From the NCBI RefSeq assembly GCF_000738775.1, contig NZ_JPOC01000015.1, positions 1 through 33,445 of the forward strand: a stretch of DNA of 33,445 nucleotides, given 5' to 3'. The notes beneath the pieces were generated by a model. The model did no database searches. It saw nothing but the letters and a program-made list of their open reading frames with translations, and was not told where the DNA came from. Numbering within the stretch: position 1 is the stretch's first letter; each line of letters opens with the position of its first letter. The stretch comes from Prescottella defluvii (GTDB lineage Bacteria; Actinomycetota; Actinomycetes; Mycobacteriales; Mycobacteriaceae). Of this stretch, positions 6,724 to 14,782 are shown one piece after another. The position numbers were made by a program, and so were the translations under genes.

Positions 6724-7347
6724 TCAGCTCTGCGACAGATTCGCCACGCCGGCGACGTCCCGCAGGTTCAGCTTGCTCAGGTCGATCGTCTTCGCGACGT
6801 CGTATGCGTCGAGGATCGGCTGGCCGATCTCGACACCGTGATCGTCGGCGGCGTCGATGAGCGCGTCGATCTGGTCGAAGACACCCTGCGCGGGGTGCAG
6901 CGGGGCGGCCGGGGTCTCGACGACCGGTGCGGGCGCGACGGCCTGCGGGGTCGCGGCGGGGGCATTGCGCTGCGTCGGCGCGCTGCTCAGGCCGAGCTTG
7001 GAGGAGCAGGACGGCCAGGCGCCCCAGCCCTGGTTGGCGAGCACGCGCTCGGCGACGACGATCTGCTGCTCGCGGGTGGCCTGGTTCGCGGTCGAGGCGA
7101 ACTCTCCGCCGCCGTGCGACTTCCAGGTGCTCGGGGAGAACTGCAGGCCACCGTGGTAGCCGTTGCCGGTGTTGATGCCCCAGTTGCCGCCGGCCTCGCA
7201 CTGCGCGAGCTTGTCCCAGTCGGAATCGGGGGCCGCGCTGGCGGTGCCGGCGAAGGCGACGCCGCCCACGCCCATGATGGCGCCGGTGACGGCGACCTTG
7301 GCTACGGTGCGGCCGGTGGTAGACGGCTTGCGATGACGTCCGCTCAT
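6724..7347 (-). CDS. rpfA: Resuscitation-promoting factor (RpfA-like), secreted muralytic enzyme
   Basis: The 207-aa protein has a Sec signal peptide (charged start, hydrophobic core 15-35, cleavage near ASA at 36-38) and an RPF domain at about 41-115. The domain, related to lysozyme and lytic transglycosylases, cleaves peptidoglycan and promotes exit from dormancy. Seen are the WDKLAQCEAGGNW motif with catalytic Glu51, the GGLQFSPSTW motif, and the family's paired Cys residues (50 and about 113). A Pro/Ala-rich linker leads to a C-terminal tail of about 55 residues lacking a LysM domain. ATG 7347 is preceded by GAGAGGA. A c-di-AMP riboswitch occupies the leader. Position matches Rv0867c. Confidence 0.95.
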   Translation of the reverse strand: MSGRHRKPSTTGRTVAKVAVTGAIMGVGGVAFAGTASAAPDSDWDKLAQCEAGGNWGINTGNGYHGGLQFSPSTWKSHGGGEFASTANQATREQQIVVAERVLANQGWGAWPSCSSKLGLSSAPTQRNAPAATPQAVAPAPVVETPAAPLHPAQGVFDQIDALIDAADDHGVEIGQPILDAYDVAKTIDLSKLNLRDVAGVANLSQS

Positions 7348-7365
7348 GTCGGTTGGTTCCTCTCC

Positions 7366-7540
7366 GCACGCGCCTGCGAGGTCAGCTGTCGGGTTCGGGC
7401 TGAGAGGTCGCCCGGCCTCGCCGCTCGTGGATGGAGCGGGTCTGGCTTCACCCCCAGGGAGATTGCTCTCCCGATGCCTACGGGGTGGTCCCCTGCGGGA
7501 CCTGTTCCCCGGAGGACCTTTGGGTCCCCCGTCCCCGTCC
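7366..7540 (-). promoter_or_regulatory. ydaO/yuaA-type c-di-AMP riboswitch controlling rpfA
   Basis: Read on the minus strand, the rpfA leader contains the conserved ydaO core: CCGGGGAACAGG near 7501-7512, GGGGGTGAAGCC near 7450, and the 3' signature GAACCCGACAGCTGACCTCG ending near 7378, then GCAGGCG. The class binds cyclic di-AMP and normally turns expression off when the ligand is high; in Actinobacteria it often precedes rpf and other cell-wall hydrolase genes. The aptamer ends only about 20 nt before the start codon. Exact 5' boundary is approximate. No SD-sequestering or terminator arm was worked out. Confidence 0.88.
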
Positions 7541-7833
7541 ATGGATGGTTCGTGGGTGTTCCGGACCCACTGGACGGGGTTTGGCGCGGCGGGCCCGGTG
7601 TGGCCGAGTTTCCGGCCGGACACGACGGTACGACGATCAGGCGGCAAACGTCACCGATTGATAACGCGGCGCGTCTTTGTGTTGCTCGACTGCGGAATTC
7701 GACGGAGACGGCTTAGCCCCAGCTAGTCGCGCCGAGGCGTCCTCGATCACGGTTCGACACCGCTCCGTTATCGGGACGTAATGTGAGTGAGATCACATCG
7801 GGAACGGGCGGTCTGTCCCACTTTGCGGAACGG
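7541..7833. other. Intergenic region upstream of the rpfA riboswitch
   Basis: About 290 nt separate the YccF gene (stop 7834) from the riboswitch. It must hold the rpfA promoter, reading leftwards. I see no open frame with coding character, no strong inverted repeat and no clear -10/-35 pair. The AT-richer patch near 7645-7690 is the likeliest promoter zone. Confidence 0.4.
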
Positions 7834-8638: not shown

Positions 8639-9244
8639 ATGACTGCTTTCACTCGTATGTCCGGAGCCCTCGCGTGGCAGGGCAAGGTTCTGGGCGGCGT
8701 GCTGCTCGCGCTCTTCCTCGCGGCAGCCGCGGTGATCGCGGTCCCGTCCGTCGCTCGTGCCGACACCCCGGCCCCCACCGTCGAGTACTCGACCGACAAC
8801 GGTGCCACCTGGGGCGACGCCGACGTGATCGACTGGAATCCCGGTGAGCTGGTGCCCGGGCGGGTACTCGCCACCAGCTTCCAGATCCGCAACATCTCCG
8901 GTGTGGAGGGCGTCGTCGGCTTCTCGGTGGGCAACTACACGCTCACTCCCGGTATGACCGCCACCGCCCGCGTCGACATCGACGGCCAGATCGGCAACCC
9001 GGTCACGCTCACCGAAACCCGCACGGTGGCGCCGGGAACGAAGCTCGGCTCGGTCCATCTCGGAGCGAACGAGACCGCCGCGATCTCCCTGGTCGTCGGC
9101 ATGCCCGCGGACGCCGGCAACCAGACGCAGAACGGTGAGGCCAACCCGATGTGGTCCGTCGGCTTCACGCCCGGCCCCGGCGACGTCGCCACCGGCCCCC
9201 TCGGCTCTCTCGGCTCCCTTGGCGCCGGGAGCTTCGCCTCCTGA
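8639..9244 (+). CDS. Secreted protein with conventional Sec signal peptide
   Basis: The 201-aa protein begins at ATG 8639 with a long n-region, a hydrophobic core at about 18-36 and a VARA-D cleavage site near residue 41. The mature part is beta-rich, starting PAPTVEYSTDNGATW, with acidic and Thr-rich stretches and a Gly/Ser/Leu-rich tail (GPLGSLGSLGAG). It lacks the W-N/S-D-T-E-T SipW signature of the proteins at 11.6-14.8 kb. It is followed by a strong hairpin and then a SipW-type signal peptidase on the same strand. I infer a surface or matrix component; no family was recognised. Confidence 0.8.
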   Translation: MTAFTRMSGALAWQGKVLGGVLLALFLAAAAVIAVPSVARADTPAPTVEYSTDNGATWGDADVIDWNPGELVPGRVLATSFQIRNISGVEGVVGFSVGNYTLTPGMTATARVDIDGQIGNPVTLTETRTVAPGTKLGSVHLGANETAAISLVVGMPADAGNQTQNGEANPMWSVGFTPGPGDVATGPLGSLGSLGAGSFAS

Positions 9245-9270
9245 TCGAGCAGCGGGCCCGCTGACCCATC

Positions 9271-9325
9271 GAACGGGCGGTTATCCGACTCGGCACTCGG
9301 CCGATGGTCGGATAACCGCCCGTTC
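9271..9325. terminator. Perfect 19-bp stem, terminator
   Basis: Arms 9271-9289 and 9307-9325 pair perfectly around a 17-nt loop, 27 nt after the stop of the secreted-protein gene. It probably ends that transcript, so the signal peptidase at 9392 needs its own promoter in the roughly 65 nt that follow or depends on read-through. Confidence 0.85.
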
Positions 9326-9391
9326 GGTGTTGCACGGTCCAGTCAGTGGAATTACCGTCGGCGCCTTACCCGGCTAGTGATTGAGTTGAGC

Positions 9392-9952
9392 ATGGCAATT
9401 GATCGAAAGCGCACTAGCTCCGGCCGTTCCCGCGGTTGGGAGATCGCACTCAACGTCGGCGCGGTCGTCGGGCTGATCTGTGTGCTGGCGACGGTGGCGT
9501 CGTTGGTGTTCGGTATAAAGCCGCTGATCTTCCGGTCGGGGTCGATGTCGCCGGACATTCCGACTGGCGCGCTGGCGCTTTCGCGGACGACACCTGCCGG
9601 TGACCTCGCGATCGGTGACGTCGTGAGTGTGTTCAACGATCAGGGTACGAGGATCACGCATCGTGTCCACGAGATCGTTTCGCAGGACGGTGGTTCCGCC
9701 GTCCTGATCCTCAAGGGCGATGCCAACGAGCATGCCGACCTCATGCCGTACACGGTGGCGGAGGCCGATCGGATGTTCGCGAGCGTGCCGGTCCTTGGCT
9801 ACGTGGTGTCGTGGTTGTCGTCGCCGGTCGCTATTTTCCTGGGTGGCGTGCTTGCCGGTGGACTGCTGGTGCTGGCATTCGGGCCGGTGGCGCAGGCGCA
9901 GCGCAAGTTCGACGACTCCGATTCCGATTCCGATTCGGACGCCGAGTTGTGA
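9392..9952 (+). CDS. SipW/ER-type signal peptidase I (S26B), copy 1
   Basis: The 186-aa membrane protease has a first helix at about 17-42, the serine box FRSGSMSP (Ser51), the histidine box ITHRV (His90, in place of the Lys of ordinary bacterial LepB), and the GDANEHAD aspartate box at 109-116, followed by a second helix at about 136-164. The Ser-His arrangement defines the archaeal/ER/SipW class, which in Firmicutes matures biofilm-matrix proteins. The C-terminus is an unusual Ser-Asp alternating tail (DDSDSDSDSD). ATG 9392 is preferred; GTG 9377 is an alternative and neither has a strong ribosome site. Its likely clients are encoded nearby. Confidence 0.9.
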   Translation: MAIDRKRTSSGRSRGWEIALNVGAVVGLICVLATVASLVFGIKPLIFRSGSMSPDIPTGALALSRTTPAGDLAIGDVVSVFNDQGTRITHRVHEIVSQDGGSAVLILKGDANEHADLMPYTVAEADRMFASVPVLGYVVSWLSSPVAIFLGGVLAGGLLVLAFGPVAQAQRKFDDSDSDSDSDAEL

Positions 9953-9988
9953 CGGATGCACCGCACCGTCCTGGGCACAGTGCCTGAT

Positions 9989-10310
9989 CTACTGCGGTGG
10001 ACGGTGGAGGTGGTCCTCGCGACGCTTCGCTTCCCGTCGGGCACGTTCGTGTGAGAGTGCCCCGGCGACCAGTTCGCCCAGGTGGTGGCGATGGTTGACG
10101 CGGGGCGAGCGTCCCGGACTCCGTTGGGGCCATTCGGGTTTGTCAGCTTCCAGGGCCTTCGTGAACGAGCGCATGGCAGGCGTGGCAGGTCAGGCTCTCG
10201 TTGGCGCTGCCGCGTGCACCAACGCCTCCCGATTCGCAACCCACGTCGTCGGCGGCGCTCGCGCTCGTCGGGTGCGTCGCCGTCGGAGTGTAGGTGGGCC
10301 AGGAGACTAG
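9989..10310 (-). pseudogene. Probable relic of an HNH endonuclease gene
   Basis: No single open frame spans this stretch, yet successive minus-strand frames read like one decayed protein. One frame gives NESLTCHACHALVHEGP, resembling the C-terminal half of an HNH nuclease (Asn, Cys-x2-Cys, then His). A second continues WKLTNPNGPNGVRDARP and a third ends HHLGELVAGALSHERAR and a stop at 9989. Two frameshifts would be needed. It lies at the junction of the plus-strand and minus-strand halves of the secretion locus. Alternative: non-coding spacer with chance similarity. Confidence 0.4.
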
Positions 10311-10471
10311 GGGCGTCGTCGTCCGATGATGAGTATGCCGATCACCCCGATGGCCACGAATGCCACAGATGCGGGCTGCGCCCACCAGCCGATGAAGTAT
10401 CCGCCGACCCCGATGGCGCCGACGGTTCCGATCACGCCGACAGCGAGCAGGAGCGCTGCGATCACCGCCAC
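10307..10471 (-). CDS. Small two-helix membrane protein, 54 aa
   Basis: From GTG 10471, with AAGGGAG about 5 nt upstream, the frame encodes 54 residues: hydrophobic segment 1 (about 1-24), a turn containing YFIGWWAQP, hydrophobic segment 2 (about 32-48) and an Arg-rich end (GRRRP). The frame is open upstream to 10579, but that part overlaps the terminator hairpin and lacks a ribosome site. It is the last minus-strand gene of the secretion locus. No family recognised. Confidence 0.6.
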   Translation of the reverse strand: MAVIAALLLAVGVIGTVGAIGVGGYFIGWWAQPASVAFVAIGVIGILIIGRRRP

Positions 10472-10537
10472 GAGTGCTCCCTTCGATCGGCCGCGGTGCG
10501 GGACTGCGAGGAACGTAACGGGCGATGGCGAACGTAG

Positions 10538-10588
10538 TTCGGGCGGATGCCGGTCCCCGTCATGTGGGGAGGCCGGCATCCGCCCGAA
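10538..10588. terminator. Long inverted repeat ending the 12266-10604 transcript
   Basis: Arms 10538-10553 and 10573-10588 (16 nt each) pair perfectly, and an inner TCCCC/GGGGA pair (10554-10558 with 10566-10570) extends the stem after a 2-nt bulge. It lies 16 nt beyond the stop of the mucin-like exported protein. Confidence 0.82.
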
Positions 10589-10603
10589 TGTGCGTGAGTC
10601 TGA

Positions 10604-11623
10604 TCAGCTGATCGCGCAGGTGGCGGTATCCACGTAGTGGACGGCACCGTCACCGTCGGTGACCGCGAGGGTCCCGTCGCCGTTGTCGGTGATCTTTTCG
10701 GCGCCGTCAACCGTCGCACTGCACTGTTCGACGCCATCGGAGAGGACGGCAACGTTGTCGTCGGCCAACTCTGCGGTCAGTCCCTCACCCAGATCGACCT
10801 CACGGTCGGCTGCACCAGACGGACGCGTGGTCGTCGTGGTCGTGGTTGTCGGCTGTGTGGTGGTCGTGGTGACGGACGGTGTCTCGGTCGTGGACGTCGG
10901 TGCTTCTGTCGTGGTCGAAGGCGTAGACGTAGAAGGTGTTTCGGTCGTGGACGTCGGTGCTTCCGTCGTCGTCGTTGTCGCGCTCGGCGTTGATGTCACA
11001 TCGACCGGGTCAGGCCCGCCGAGGGGCCCGCCGCCTTCCTGTTGGATGGCAACTCGAGCTGATACACCGAATGGATCCCAAGTGGTCTGGTTTTCCCAGG
11101 CGTTGTTGGCCTGGCTGGGGGATGGGCCGTTCTCGCATTCGGTCCTGCTGCTGGTGAGGTCCTTGTACGAGATTGCGGTGTTGGCTCCCCTCCAGCCGGA
11201 AGACCTGGCGGGCCCGTTCAGCGTGTGCACGCGGGCGTACACGCTGGCCCGGGGGCTGGTTGTGCTGATCCCGTTGAGCGAAGTTGTGGTCTGGGCGGGG
11301 TACTCCCAGTAGAGCGATCCGTCTCCATGCACAAGTCGGACCACGTAGCCGGTCGCACCGGGGACCGCAGGCCAAGACAGGTTTGCGCGTCGACCAAGAA
11401 GGTTCAAGCCACCGCTCGTTGAGCAGTTGACTTGGGCCGTAAGTGGTGTCGGGAAGTAGTTGCCGGTCGCGAGCATCGAGACATTCGCGGTACCGGTGTC
11501 GGTGAGGCTGGCCTGTGTGCCTGCCGACTGGGCGAGTCCCAGCGCCACGACAACGACGCCGCCGATCGCGAGAGCGGAGCGTAGCGACAGCATCCGGGCA
11601 CGGAAGTTGCGAGTGTTAGCCAT
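10604..11623 (-). CDS. SipW-type exported protein with FN3-like domain and mucin-like Thr/Ser stalk
   Basis: The 339-aa protein starts at ATG 11623 (AGGAG upstream). The N-terminus has a basic region, a hydrophobic core at about 17-36, and a SipW-like junction (QASLTDTGTANVSMLATG). Residues about 75-150 resemble a fibronectin type III fold (LSWPAVPGATGYVVRL). Residues about 205-275 are Thr/Ser/Pro/Glu-rich, with units such as TTTEAPTSTTETPS, typical of extended, possibly glycosylated stalks. A C-terminal domain of about 70 residues has two Cys, likely disulfide-bonded. There is no LPXTG motif. It is 28 nt after the exported protein at 11652 and likely in its operon. Role inferred: surface adhesin or matrix protein. 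Confidence 0.85.
   Translation of the reverse strand: MANTRNFRARMLSLRSALAIGGVVVVALGLAQSAGTQASLTDTGTANVSMLATGNYFPTPLTAQVNCSTSGGLNLLGRRANLSWPAVPGATGYVVRLVHGDGSLYWEYPAQTTTSLNGISTTSPRASVYARVHTLNGPARSSGWRGANTAISYKDLTSSRTECENGPSPSQANNAWENQTTWDPFGVSARVAIQQEGGGPLGGPDPVDVTSTPSATTTTTEAPTSTTETPSTSTPSTTTEAPTSTTETPSVTTTTTQPTTTTTTTTRPSGAADREVDLGEGLTAELADDNVAVLSDGVEQCSATVDGAEKITDNGDGTLAVTDGDGAVHYVDTATCAIS
10878..10972 (-). repeat. In-frame 57-bp-spaced direct repeat in the stalk
   Basis: The 38-nt segments 10878-10915 and 10935-10972 differ at three positions and are offset by 57 bp (19 codons). They encode the repeated Thr/Ser/Glu/Pro stalk unit of the exported protein and could change copy number by slippage or recombination. 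Confidence 0.8.
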
Positions 11624-11651
11624 GTCAGTCTCCTAGAGGTTCGCCGCTGGC

Positions 11652-12266
11652 TTACGCGCCGCTCGGTACTTCGGTTGCTGTGAATTCGAATGCCGCACCG
11701 AGGTACTTCATTCGGGTGGTGTCCGGTGCGGTCGAACTCAAGGTGATCTGGAAGCACAGGTTCTCCGTGCCCTCGGCCTTGGTGAGGGTCCGTGACGGGA
11801 TCAGGTCAACCGGCGCGGCAGTCGACAGCGCCTTCGAGTCGATCAGGGTGCCGCCGCTGCATGTGGTGTTGTTGCTGCTTCCGCCGTCGTACACGGCGAC
11901 TGTGAGACTGCTCGCGAGGCCGGCGTCACCGTTCGCGGTAGCTTTCGCGACGTAGGCGAAGTCCACGGCGCCAGTGTTCTGAACCGGCAGCATCGCGGCG
12001 ACGCTGTTGCCCTTGAGTATGCTCGTCTTCTCCAGCGCGGTGAAGGCGTGGCTCGGGCGGTCGCCGTTCAACTTGAGCTGAATGGATCCCGTGCTGAAGA
12101 CGCCCGACGTCGCAGTCGCGCTGTTCGACCATGCCGCCATCGTGCCCACCGCGCCCAGTCCGAGGACCATCCCGAGGGACAGGACGGCACGCGTGCGGGT
12201 CCAGGCGCCATGACTAATACGTCCACGCATCTGCACTGCCCTGCGCTTTCCCTCGTGTGATGTCAT
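11652..12266 (-). CDS. Exported protein with SipW-type signal, TasA/camelysin-like
   Basis: The 204-aa protein has a long basic n-region, a hydrophobic core at about 29-45 and the junction AAWSNSATATSGVFSTGSIQLKLNG, typical of SipW-cleaved substrates where the W-S-D/N segment begins the mature part. The remaining about 155 residues are beta-rich with two Cys (about 136 and 171), as in TasA/camelysin-like proteins. ATG 12266 was taken as start; Met13 is an alternative. It probably has its own promoter, since a hairpin at 12406-12446 separates it from the operon upstream. The next gene follows after 28 nt. Confidence 0.85.
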   Translation of the reverse strand: MTSHEGKRRAVQMRGRISHGAWTRTRAVLSLGMVLGLGAVGTMAAWSNSATATSGVFSTGSIQLKLNGDRPSHAFTALEKTSILKGNSVAAMLPVQNTGAVDFAYVAKATANGDAGLASSLTVAVYDGGSSNNTTCSGGTLIDSKALSTAAPVDLIPSRTLTKAEGTENLCFQITLSSTAPDTTRMKYLGAAFEFTATEVPSGA

Positions 12267-12405
12267 TGTGTTGACCTACTTCGTTTCCGTCGTTCTGGTG
12301 CTGCCGCCCGCCAGCAGCGTGCTCGCCATACCTCTCGATAGTCGATCTACCGGCAACACGATGAGCTCCTTCACTTTCCGCTGATACACGAATTCCGTTT
12401 GGAAA

Positions 12406-12446
12406 TCAGGGCCGCCGAATGGGAGGGGGTCCGACGACGGCCCTGA
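12406..12446. terminator. Hairpin ending the signal peptidase operon
   Basis: Arms 12406-12417 and 12435-12446 (TCAGGGCC.../...GGCCCTGA) pair with one mismatch around a 17-nt loop, 22 nt beyond the stop of the lipoprotein gene (12468). The remaining stretch to 12267 probably holds the promoter of the exported-protein gene at 12266; I see no frame or further structure in it. Confidence 0.55.
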
Positions 12447-12467
12447 CGTTTGATGCGCGTGACCCGG

Positions 12468-13043
12468 TCAGGGGAGTACCTGTTCGAGGTGGACGCCGAT
12501 GTCTTGGAAGTTCGCTGCGGCCGACTGCCCGGCAGTGCCGGCCGTTTGCCGATCGAAGGTGAACGTCGCCGCAACCTCGACGGTTGCACCGTTGTGTGCT
12601 GTGGTGACGACGTTTCCGGTCGGCAGCGGCGACCCGTTGATGCTCGTCGTCACCTGCGGTACCAGTTTCGCGGTGAGCTGACCACCACTGGTGAAGGTCA
12701 CGGGGTCGGTCGTGAGTCGCGCCTTCAGGCCGTCGCCCGAGAGGGTGAGCTGGAAGCTGGCCTTGTAGATGAGGGCGTCACCCGGCACGATCCGGAAGGA
12801 AGCGGTGTCGATGGGCCCGTTCTGGTCGCTCCATACCGGTGCGGAGACCTGGGTGAGTGCGAGCTTGCCGGAAGTGTTTCCACCACCACCGATTTCCGTC
12901 GGCGGGGCGGTGGTCGTCGGCGCGGTGGTGGTGCCACCGCTGGAACTGCTACCGCCACCGAGGCTGCCGGTGTCGCAGCCTGCGGTGAACAACACGGAAG
13001 CGAGCGCCACCGCGGCAACTCCGCACTTCGTGAAGGCTTTCAT
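12468..13043 (-). CDS. Lipoprotein paralog of the RER_14450-type exported protein
   Basis: The 191-aa protein has a type II signal peptide with lipobox LFTAGC (Cys23), followed by a Gly/Ser/Thr/Pro linker to about residue 60. The rest aligns with the protein at 14264-14782: shared points are GKL near the start of the domain, F[KR]IVPGD[VA]L[VI]YKA in the middle, and matching beta-strand patterns to the end. So the same fold is anchored to the membrane as a lipoprotein instead of being a SipW substrate. Its ATG overlaps the signal peptidase stop by 4 nt (ATGA), implying translational coupling. I infer a membrane anchor or assembly base for the released paralog. Confidence 0.85.
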   Translation of the reverse strand: MKAFTKCGVAAVALASVLFTAGCDTGSLGGGSSSSGGTTTAPTTTAPPTEIGGGGNTSGKLALTQVSAPVWSDQNGPIDTASFRIVPGDALIYKASFQLTLSGDGLKARLTTDPVTFTSGGQLTAKLVPQVTTSINGSPLPTGNVVTTAHNGATVEVAATFTFDRQTAGTAGQSAAANFQDIGVHLEQVLP

Positions 13044-13726
13044 CGGACTAGTTCGTTCCCCTCGCTCGGGTTTTCGCGCAGGATCGGAGCACTCGACGCA
13101 TGAGGGTCGAACACTGGGATTTCAGTGGTGATAGCGGTGGAATCATCCTCCGCAGCAACGTCCTTCCGCTGGCGGCGTACTCGTGCCTTGTCGCGGACGG
13201 AGCCGACGAACATGACAACCGCATACGCCAACAGGCCGCCCACCACCACCGCAAGGAGCGCGGAACGCTGCTTGCCTGATATGAAGTTGTTGACGTAGCC
13301 GACGTACGGGACTGCGTACCAGACTTTTCCGCGGACCTGTCCGGGAACTACAGGTCGCTCGTCCGGTGCCCGGTTGGCGTCACCCTGCGTGGTGAACCGC
13401 AGCTCACCCTTCGCCGAGTACTGCACTGCGGTGATGCGGTGCGTGACGACATCGACCTTCCCGGATTCCCACTGGAACGTGATGGCGTCACCGACGCCGA
13501 GTGTTCCGGCGTCCACCGGCTTGACGACGACGAGCGTGCCCGGAGGATACGTCGGCTCCATCGACCCAGTAAGCACCGTGTACGGCGTCGACCCGGTGAC
13601 CCGGGGAATCACGATCGTCAATGCCAGGATGCCCACCATGACGATGAGCAGGAGCCACGACACGACCGACTTGACCCACCACCAGGCGGTGGTCGATTCA
13701 ACATCAGAGTCGTTGGCGTGGCTCAT
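13040..13726 (-). CDS. sipW: SipW/ER-type signal peptidase I (S26B), copy 2
   Basis: The 228-aa protease begins at ATG 13726. It has an N-terminal helix at about 15-40, the serine box TGSMEPT (Ser55), the histidine box VTHRI (His96), the QGDAN aspartate box (Asp116), a second helix at about 152-172 and a charged cytoplasmic tail of about 55 residues. His instead of Lys marks the SipW class. It starts 2 nt after one SipW-signal substrate and overlaps the lipoprotein gene by 4 nt, so it is the dedicated peptidase of this operon. It differs clearly from copy 1 at 9392, suggesting different clients. Confidence 0.94.
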   Translation of the reverse strand: MSHANDSDVESTTAWWWVKSVVSWLLLIVMVGILALTIVIPRVTGSTPYTVLTGSMEPTYPPGTLVVVKPVDAGTLGVGDAITFQWESGKVDVVTHRITAVQYSAKGELRFTTQGDANRAPDERPVVPGQVRGKVWYAVPYVGYVNNFISGKQRSALLAVVVGGLLAYAVVMFVGSVRDKARVRRQRKDVAAEDDSTAITTEIPVFDPHASSAPILRENPSEGNELVR

Positions 13727-13728
13727 GT

Positions 13729-14259
13729 TCAGACCTGGCTGGCGTCGAACGTGAACGTCGTGGTGGAACTGACACCCCCGGGTGCGCCCGCGCCGACCGT
13801 CCCGCGCAGGCACAGAACGGTGGTGGCATTCGGCTGCAGTGCGGGCTGTAGCGTGCTGGCAGCGCCGATCATGGGGCCGTCATACAGCGACGTGCCGGCA
13901 GGGTCACCAGCTGCCGTACAGGCAGTCTCGTTCGCGACTTGCCACACTTTGAGAGTCAGCGGAAGCGCCGTGTTCGACTGAGTGACACCGGCCAGCTTGT
14001 ACTGCATCGGTACGTTGCCAGTGTTCTTGACCGTCAACGGAGTCTGCGAGTACCCGCCGACAGCAAGGTCGGTCTTCCCGAACGAGTCGAGAGTGAAGGA
14101 CCCGGTGCCGACGCCGATGTCCAAAGTGCCGGCGGTGATCGTCGCGCCGGGAAGCGTCTCGGTGTCACTCCACAGGGCGCCGGTCTGCTGGGCCGAAAAG
14201 AAAATCAGCCCAACAGCCGGCACCGCTGCAAGTGCCCACCAACGGTGGTTCTTCGACAA
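13729..14259 (-). CDS. Exported protein with SipW-type signal peptide
   Basis: The 176-aa protein starts at TTG 14259, 4 nt after the previous stop. A basic start and hydrophobic core (8-26) lead to GALWSDTETLPGATITAGTL at 27-46, a near-textbook SipW-substrate signature and almost the same as in the gene upstream (AAWNDTETLDGGTITAGKL). The mature part is beta-rich with a TPLTVKNTGNVPMQYKL stretch typical of TasA/camelysin-like proteins, and two Cys. Gap to the signal peptidase start is 2 nt. Expected to be released or assembled on the surface. Confidence 0.9.
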   Translation of the reverse strand: MSKNHRWWALAAVPAVGLIFFSAQQTGALWSDTETLPGATITAGTLDIGVGTGSFTLDSFGKTDLAVGGYSQTPLTVKNTGNVPMQYKLAGVTQSNTALPLTLKVWQVANETACTAAGDPAGTSLYDGPMIGAASTLQPALQPNATTVLCLRGTVGAGAPGGVSSTTTFTFDASQV

Positions 14260-14263
14260 GGCT

Positions 14264-14782
14264 CTACTGCTGCTGGAGCTTCAGCTGAACGCCGTTGAGT
14301 GCCGCGGTAGCGCCCTGGGACGTCACGCCGTCGGTGTCAGCATCGAACGTGACCGTCGTCTCGACGGTCGCCGAGCGCGGCCCTGCCTGCGAGGAGATGA
14401 CGCCGGTGGCAGAATCGACGCCCGTAGCCGTGACAGTGGGAGTGCCCCAGGTCAACCCATCGAACGTGCCAGCGGTGCCCGGATCCAGAGTCAGTGTGGC
14501 GTTGAGGTTGGTGCCTTCTGCGATGAAGGTCGTGGTCGCCTTGTAGACCAAGACGTCGCCGGGGACGATCTTGAAGGTTTCGAGGTCGACCTCGTTGCCT
14601 TCGGTAGCTGCGTCCTCGTACCAGGTGCCGGTCGTGGTCCCGGTGAACTGCAGCTTTCCAGCGGTGATGGTGCCGCCGTCGAGGGTCTCGGTGTCGTTCC
14701 ACGCGGCGAAGGTGCCGGCACCACCGGCAAGGAGCAGTGCCGCGGCGCCGGCGGCGATTGCGCCCTTGGTCTTCTTGTTCAT
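14264..14782 (-). CDS. Alternate signal-mediated exported protein (RER_14450 family)
   Basis: The 172-aa protein starts at ATG 14782. Residues 1-26 form a Lys-rich start and Ala/Gly-rich core; residues 26-44 carry AAWNDTETLDGGTITAGKL, the SipW-cognate motif. The mature beta-rich domain contains FKIVPGDVLVYKA and matches what I know of the RER_14450 family first described in Rhodococcus. It has no Cys and many Thr, as expected of a fibre subunit. It is the first gene of the 14782-12468 operon, usually the most highly expressed position, so it may be the major subunit (inference). A small GC hairpin lies 22 nt upstream of the start. Confidence 0.9.
   Translation of the reverse strand: MNKKTKGAIAAGAAALLLAGGAGTFAAWNDTETLDGGTITAGKLQFTGTTTGTWYEDAATEGNEVDLETFKIVPGDVLVYKATTTFIAEGTNLNATLTLDPGTAGTFDGLTWGTPTVTATGVDSATGVISSQAGPRSATVETTVTFDADTDGVTSQGATAALNGVQLKLQQQ

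Follow-up and report, generated by a model that had tools for sequence, protein, structure and literature searches.

The window analyzed here comprises 33,445 nucleotides of Prescottella defluvii (assembly GCF_000738775.1, contig NZ_JPOC01000015.1, positions 1 to 33,445), part of contig 15 of a 5.13 Mb genome. Eight genes, designated A through H, lie between positions 8639 and 14782 and make up a candidate secretion locus, in which exported proteins with signals of the SipW type are encoded next to two signal peptidases of the endoplasmic reticulum (ER) type. The product of gene H is 85% identical to its closest named match, from Prescottella agglutinans, which places the host, a soil actinobacterium, in the Rhodococcus equi group. 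Genes C to H occupy the minus strand. Gene H (14264–14782; 172 amino acids, aa) specifies the putative main fibre subunit, G (13729–14259; 176 aa, TTG start) a second subunit type, F (13040–13726; 228 aa) ER-type signal peptidase 1, and E (12468–13043; 191 aa) a putative lipoprotein. As read from the sequence, H, G, F and E form a tight run, with a 4-base gap and a 2-base gap followed by an ATGA overlap. Further along the same strand, D (11652–12266; 204 aa), a putative camelysin/TasA-like subunit, is followed after 28 bases by C (10604–11623; 339 aa), a Thr-rich protein predicted to be exported. On the plus strand lie B (9392–9952; 186 aa), ER-type signal peptidase 2, and A (8639–9244; 201 aa), a frequent neighbour of the locus whose Sec-like signal reads as ending in ARA-D. 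The reading frames and translations of all eight genes agreed with the coordinates in a preliminary description of this DNA.

That description attributed W-(N/S)-D-T or related SipW-type junctions to four exported proteins and proposed their search with the hidden Markov models (HMMs) TIGR04088 and TIGR04089. The wording is fair for H (AAWNDT), G (ALWSDT) and D (AAWSNS); the junction of C (ASLTDT) is the loosest of the set. H exceeded the cut-offs of both models, with 161.1 bits for TIGR04089 (cut-off 60 bits) and 34.8 bits for TIGR04088, and D that of TIGR04088 with 29.8 bits. The other two of the four proteins, G and C, fell below the TIGR04088 cut-off. No curated HMM was over cut-off in G, which matched TIGR04089 at an E-value of 0.029, and neither A nor C had a match over cut-off among the curated family HMMs and Pfam. 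Thus, the search bore out part of the proposal, and the outcome named beforehand as contrary to it, a lack of any SipW-signal HMM match, did not occur. Among 14 control genomes TIGR04088 matched those of Bacillus subtilis and Haloferax, and in the window's own genome it matched at two places only, H and D.

Alignments of homologues extended these observations. G aligns with D and its relatives, and the two were treated in a joint D/G alignment of 42 members. At an E-value of 0.01, TIGR04088 matched 49 of 58 H members and 21 of the 42 D/G members. The column of the H junction (W28) holds W in 55 of the 58 homologues and F in the other 3, and the corresponding D/G column holds W in all 42 aligned members. 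Compared with each other, the H and D/G profiles gave an hhalign probability of 96.6 over a region spanning the signal, the first strand and part of the body. According to the available part of PMC10269814, the Escherichia coli signal peptidase is impeded by an aromatic residue at P2′; if cleavage takes place as in TasA, the P2′ residue would be W in H, G and D, and L in C.

Both peptidases passed TIGR02228 (cut-off 51.85 bits), B with 58.0 bits and F with 103.1 bits, confirming the earlier claim of two distinct ER-type Ser-His signal peptidases on opposite strands. The Pfam model Peptidase_S26 was over cut-off in F (29.1 bits) and under it in B (15.4 bits), and neither protein passed NF046067, the equivalog model for Bacillus SipW (62.7 and 98.6 bits, against a cut-off of 190 bits). 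The motifs of F in the window are GSM and THR; in an alignment of 17 B-type peptidases, neither the Ser nor the His position varies. In a quick tree, 31 B and 36 F domains were separated by one branch with an SH-aLRT value of 100, and by sequence B and F are two separate peptidase groups. The count of 67 out of 67 tree domains with the motifs is circular for Ser, because the rows were excised by the same motif pattern; applied without such a filter, a loose pattern detected both motifs in 35 of 37 B reading frames and 65 of 95 F reading frames. Motif excision missed four loci (L043, L048, L077 and L092), and L024/L061 carry their B and F split into two pieces. Plasmid-borne spread was considered and rejected: the 28 plasmid matches of F were all below 60% identity at 21–53% coverage, and the annotation of two matching plasmid neighbourhoods shows no such locus.

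We then turned to conservation, using locus HMMs built from genus members and reading gene order from the genus loci (L023–L037) and, among 165 named loci, from the best 80. A TIGR04089 gene was matched in 14 of 14 genus genomes and exceeded the cut-off in 13, so the locus is not a chance assembly. Any match at all was found at 95 loci (a redundant set that includes the window). The 43 of these with a B-type peptidase also had D (43), H (43), G (42), F (42) and A (25); of the 52 without B, 49 belong to Micrococcales and 51 have an F-type peptidase. Where B is present, the genes usually run H G F D B(-C), with E next in Prescottella and R. erythropolis, where locus L109 holds the whole gene set with B and C fused. 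In Rhodococcus and Prescottella, gene A flanks the locus and is encoded on the opposite strand; in Gordonia and Dietzia it precedes H. Another arrangement, H1 D B-C H2 G F, is that of R. maanshanensis, R. oryzae, R. triatomae, R. xishaensis and strain RD6.2, and also of R. tukisamuensis, where the gene called E by its HMM lacks a lipobox, has an H-type signal and was relabelled H2.

Among 251 genomes of the family as defined in GTDB, TIGR04089 matched 88, 82 of them over cut-off, and the B profile matched 109 at 1e-18 and 82 at 1e-50 or better, the latter bound being chosen after the table had been seen, in a gap between 1.7e-51 and 3.7e-48. The 82 genomes with TIGR04089 over cut-off are the same 82 that have a strong B peptidase. 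In 79 of them the best B place is within 6 kb of a TIGR04089 place; in two it is on another contig, and in G221 it lies 8.4 kb from the typed TIGR04089 places and about 1.9 kb from a weaker match over cut-off. In a class-wide sample the B profile matched 24 of 246 genomes at 1e-18. Mean identity within the genus (6–11 sequences each) was 0.41 for H, 0.49 for D, 0.56 for G, 0.60 for B, 0.67 for F, 0.69 for E and 0.71 for A; C varied most, with 0.33 over 8 sequences.

Some loci depart from these patterns. As seen at L026, L033 and L084, two genus genomes have an additional, divergent copy, H G F D B-C without E; L084 is the copy in P. equi DSM 20307. One (L103) lies on a contig of a metagenome-assembled genome named 'Candidatus Avipropionibacterium'; its H groups closely with that of Dietzia, possibly through binning contamination. 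Genome G117 (C1:2197377-2211852) contains ten TIGR04089 matches, three of them equal-scoring and spaced by 3,226 bases, as tandem copies of a subunit gene. A viral origin was rejected as well, since two scans of viral contigs with H gave no confirmed relative.

Within the window, a 23-base inverted repeat (96%; 9267–9289/9307–9329) directly follows A ahead of B and could be a terminator, and a 21-base inverted repeat (90%; 10538–10558/10568–10588) after C could be a two-way terminator. A promoter scan found none. To the left of the locus lies a gene for a resuscitation-promoting-factor-like transglycosylase (6724–7647, minus strand). The eight locus proteins contain no LPXTG-like motif, and no sortase family is among their matches; the remaining genome was not searched for sortases.

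The preliminary description had noted a lipoprotein paralog and a conventionally secreted protein beside the exported proteins, and E and A answer to these. Protein E exceeded the TIGR04089 cut-off with 75.2 bits over residues 36–188, and Cys23 is present in 11 of 11 aligned E sequences. Its motif in the window, FTAGC, fails the strict lipobox pattern, as does that of L027, and others that start late in the reading frame were missed by it. In a tree built from bodies only (55 rows, the H of L027 and of L082 having been dropped beforehand), 13 E proteins formed one group (98/92), and these together with six H2 copies that keep the SipW signal formed a further group (95/86). When 16 H and 11 E proteins were aligned together, 11 residues from W54 on were invariant in H; nine are kept in all 11 E sequences, L93 in nine and N92 in two. 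At the junction, W28 is kept in none of the 11 E sequences and A26 in one. By these alignments, E is a copy of the subunit that has the body and lacks the SipW junction. The tree being unrooted, the direction of the change is inferred: the junction was probably lost in E rather than gained in H. Such a protein could bind subunits at the membrane and keep them from polymerizing early, as a decoy, chaperone or terminator. The retention of the body without the junction would suit this role, and TapA of Bacillus is described as an initiator or chaperone in the available part of PMC10151520. No observation speaks directly against it, base and terminator alike requiring a lipid-anchored acceptor; we regard it as unlikely and provisionally treat E as a membrane base.

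A further feature concerns the relation between B and C. In many relatives, the B frame continues without a stop into a C-like protein, yielding one polypeptide in which a third hydrophobic segment is usually present, as is a SipW-style junction. In the window the two are split and on opposite strands. Protein C is homologous to the C-terminal part of the fused proteins; the C-terminus of B is an Asp-Ser run at the position of the linker of L028, and C comes directly after D, so the window has a split form. The main loci of the genus include five fused (G003, G005, G007, G008, G013), seven split (counting the window), one broken (G002) and one not covered (G011); two further loci (in G003 and G009) are fused. 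The 31 B domains of the tree divide into 18 fused and 13 split, L101 being scored as split only through a contig end and L096 as fused on a short tail without a junction. On this tree the state changed five times, four of the changes being forced by starred branches. Across the family sample, a stop-to-stop frame of at least 480 aa, taken as a proxy for fusion, was counted at 67 of 101 strong B places, which are distributed over 59 of 82 genomes. B stands beside D in all seven of the best distant loci of the class sample, and a junction after the peptidase was recognized by eye in six of these, not in L123. A crude hydropathy scan found three segments in 17 of 20 fused frames and two in L037, L041 and L057; the scan is rough, as it also gave three segments, two of them adjoining, in the split B of the window and none in G. 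In L043, L048 and L077 no clear junction accompanies the third segment. Given the usual topology, the fusion would have its junction on the same face of the membrane as the active site.

The frequency of the fusion, both among the tree domains and by the frame-length proxy, might be taken to mean that the polypeptide remains uncut and that C, instead of being released as a tip, stays tethered and serves B as a receptor or cofactor for bringing in substrates. This account is possible if on the unlikely side: C usually has its own SipW-style junction at the third hydrophobic segment, and in the window and other genomes it is a separate exported protein. The C-junction profile matched the D/G N-terminus with a probability of 86.4 (E-value 4.7e-6) and H with 85.8, and gave 0.7 or less with four controls (E, A and the first transmembrane segments, TM1, of B and F). 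It was made from 21 of 34 C proteins chosen by motif pattern; nine without the pattern, as well as L026, L060, L065 and L103, were left out. An fn3 domain in C was seen in one of nine fused proteins scanned, and there under cut-off, so none is claimed for the C of the window.

As to the fold of the subunits, the D/G profile matched TasA in the PDB with E-values of 0.12 (5of1) and 0.16 (8aur), the match to 5of1 being colinear at both ends; a match to the archaeal AbpX was very weak (E-value 1.2). Camelysin (PF12389) is the only Pfam family matched by D/G, in 13 of 42 members at an E-value of 0.01 (best 1.3e-6); D of the window had no match at this threshold. Two of the 42 members matched BsaA, and one matched the TasA model NF046066. 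Together, these matches hint weakly that some of the subunits, those of the D/G type, are distantly TasA/camelysin-like. Since camelysin is named as a metallo-endopeptidase, and since polymerization is deduced from sequence, the exported proteins could also stay unpolymerized, as individual proteins, secreted or on the surface (camelysin-like enzymes, or proteins of a coat or for adhesion), with a special export route in common. The common inheritance of the gene set in a largely conserved order argues otherwise, and the lipoprotein copy keeps a subunit body, as would suit an assembly partner; we consider separate proteins improbable.

On balance we lean towards reading the locus as an actinomycete system for surface filaments that is SipW-dependent, TasA-like and divided into two maturation arms, and that it makes a fibre is plausible. 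H, G and peptidase F would make up one arm; the other would comprise D and peptidase B together with C, which many relatives have fused to B, and also E. As the motifs suggest, Sec would export H, G, D and C, and F or B would cut each of them two residues ahead of its junction residue (W, W, W and L, respectively). In TasA fibres, each subunit donates its N-terminal strand to the next (available part of PMC9674648), and TapA starts TasA assembly (available part of PMC10151520); by analogy, H, G and D would form the shaft of a donor-strand fibre. Protein C, having a junction and a strand-like start with a different body, could form an adhesive, donor-only tip at one end. At the other end E, having a subunit body without a junction, could serve as an acceptor-only base anchored in the membrane through its lipid. 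The identity gradient, low in C and H and high in E and A, suits a structure in which tip and shaft are exposed and the base and machinery conserved. The fullest form of the model is doubtful: a complete donor-strand kit for a Gram-positive organism with a mycolate outer membrane, with C as tip, H/G/D as shaft and E as base, in which B and the tip make a polyprotein and each peptidase delivers its own first subunit.

Several observations weigh against a TasA-like filament. The similarity of D/G to TasA is not significant alone, FAP74 (0.0012) and an Ig chain (0.046) being better matches in the PDB. The H profile search found no TasA, and PF12389 matched 2 of 58 H members, a frequency also reached by unrelated families in the same scan. 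The choice of C segments by motif pattern favoured their match to D/G, and a plain D/G N-terminal HMM, a test to which the profile-profile comparison is superior, ranked one C protein of the 34 better than the best shuffled control (L113, 7.7e-5, against 0.12) and did not find C of the window. The E-type copy is present in 11 of 14 genus genomes; G009 and G013 are without it, and G011 stops at a contig end. No TapA family was among the HMM matches of the eight proteins, the presence of a TapA model in the libraries being unchecked. The passage of a fibre through the mycolate outer membrane is left unexplained by the model, in which the fibre itself is putative. The locus as such is real, conserved and more structured than had been seen in the preliminary description. 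Of the surface-fibre locus with its own maturation machinery envisaged there, what is upheld is a two-armed locus of the SipW type that has peptidases of its own and is conserved as one unit; some of its subunits bear a weak, distant likeness to TasA and camelysin, and the fibre stays putative. To this the present analysis adds the two peptidase groups, the frequent B-C fusion and the nature of the lipoprotein as a subunit copy without the junction.

If the filament model is correct, about a third (82/251) of the sampled genomes of the family would carry an unstudied matrix-fibre system, in which a donor-strand filament would be anchored in a new manner, by a lipoprotein copy of the subunit, and a signal peptidase would be fused to its probable substrate. 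It would also become testable how bacteria with a mycolate envelope assemble and retain a sortase-free fibre.

The RER_14450 family takes its name from Rhodococcus. At the level of sequence families, the locus is like RER_14450-type loci, H and E passing TIGR04089 and B and F passing TIGR02228. The open-licence literature yielded nothing on RER_14450, the alternate-type signal peptide or alternate signal-mediated exported proteins, and its matches to the SipW-dependent-type signal peptide were Bacillus work; no title on the actinobacterial system was among the matches listed in the broader open-licence literature, which says little. In archaeal threads and bundling pili, beta-sandwich subunits are joined by donor strands, as is proposed here from genes; these structures are archaeal, and the available part of PMC9715654 describes neither a dedicated peptidase pair nor a lipid base. 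The sipW-tasA/calY system of Bacillus cereus with CapP likewise combines several TasA-like proteins with an extra assembly protein; it differs in that a single SipW is named and a lipoprotein goes unmentioned in the main text, as far as the available part of PMC13082335 goes. The likeness to tapA-sipW-tasA of Bacillus subtilis lies in an ER-type signal peptidase adjoining exported subunits with SipW-type signals, in the weak colinear similarity of D/G to TasA and in the W, F or L at the position of the P2′ Phe of TasA, if the proteins are cut alike (available part of PMC10269814). Unlike that system, which has one peptidase and a TapA not seen here, the locus has two peptidase groups, one of which is often fused to a protein with a SipW junction, a main subunit of the TIGR04089 family and a putative lipoprotein copy of the subunit.

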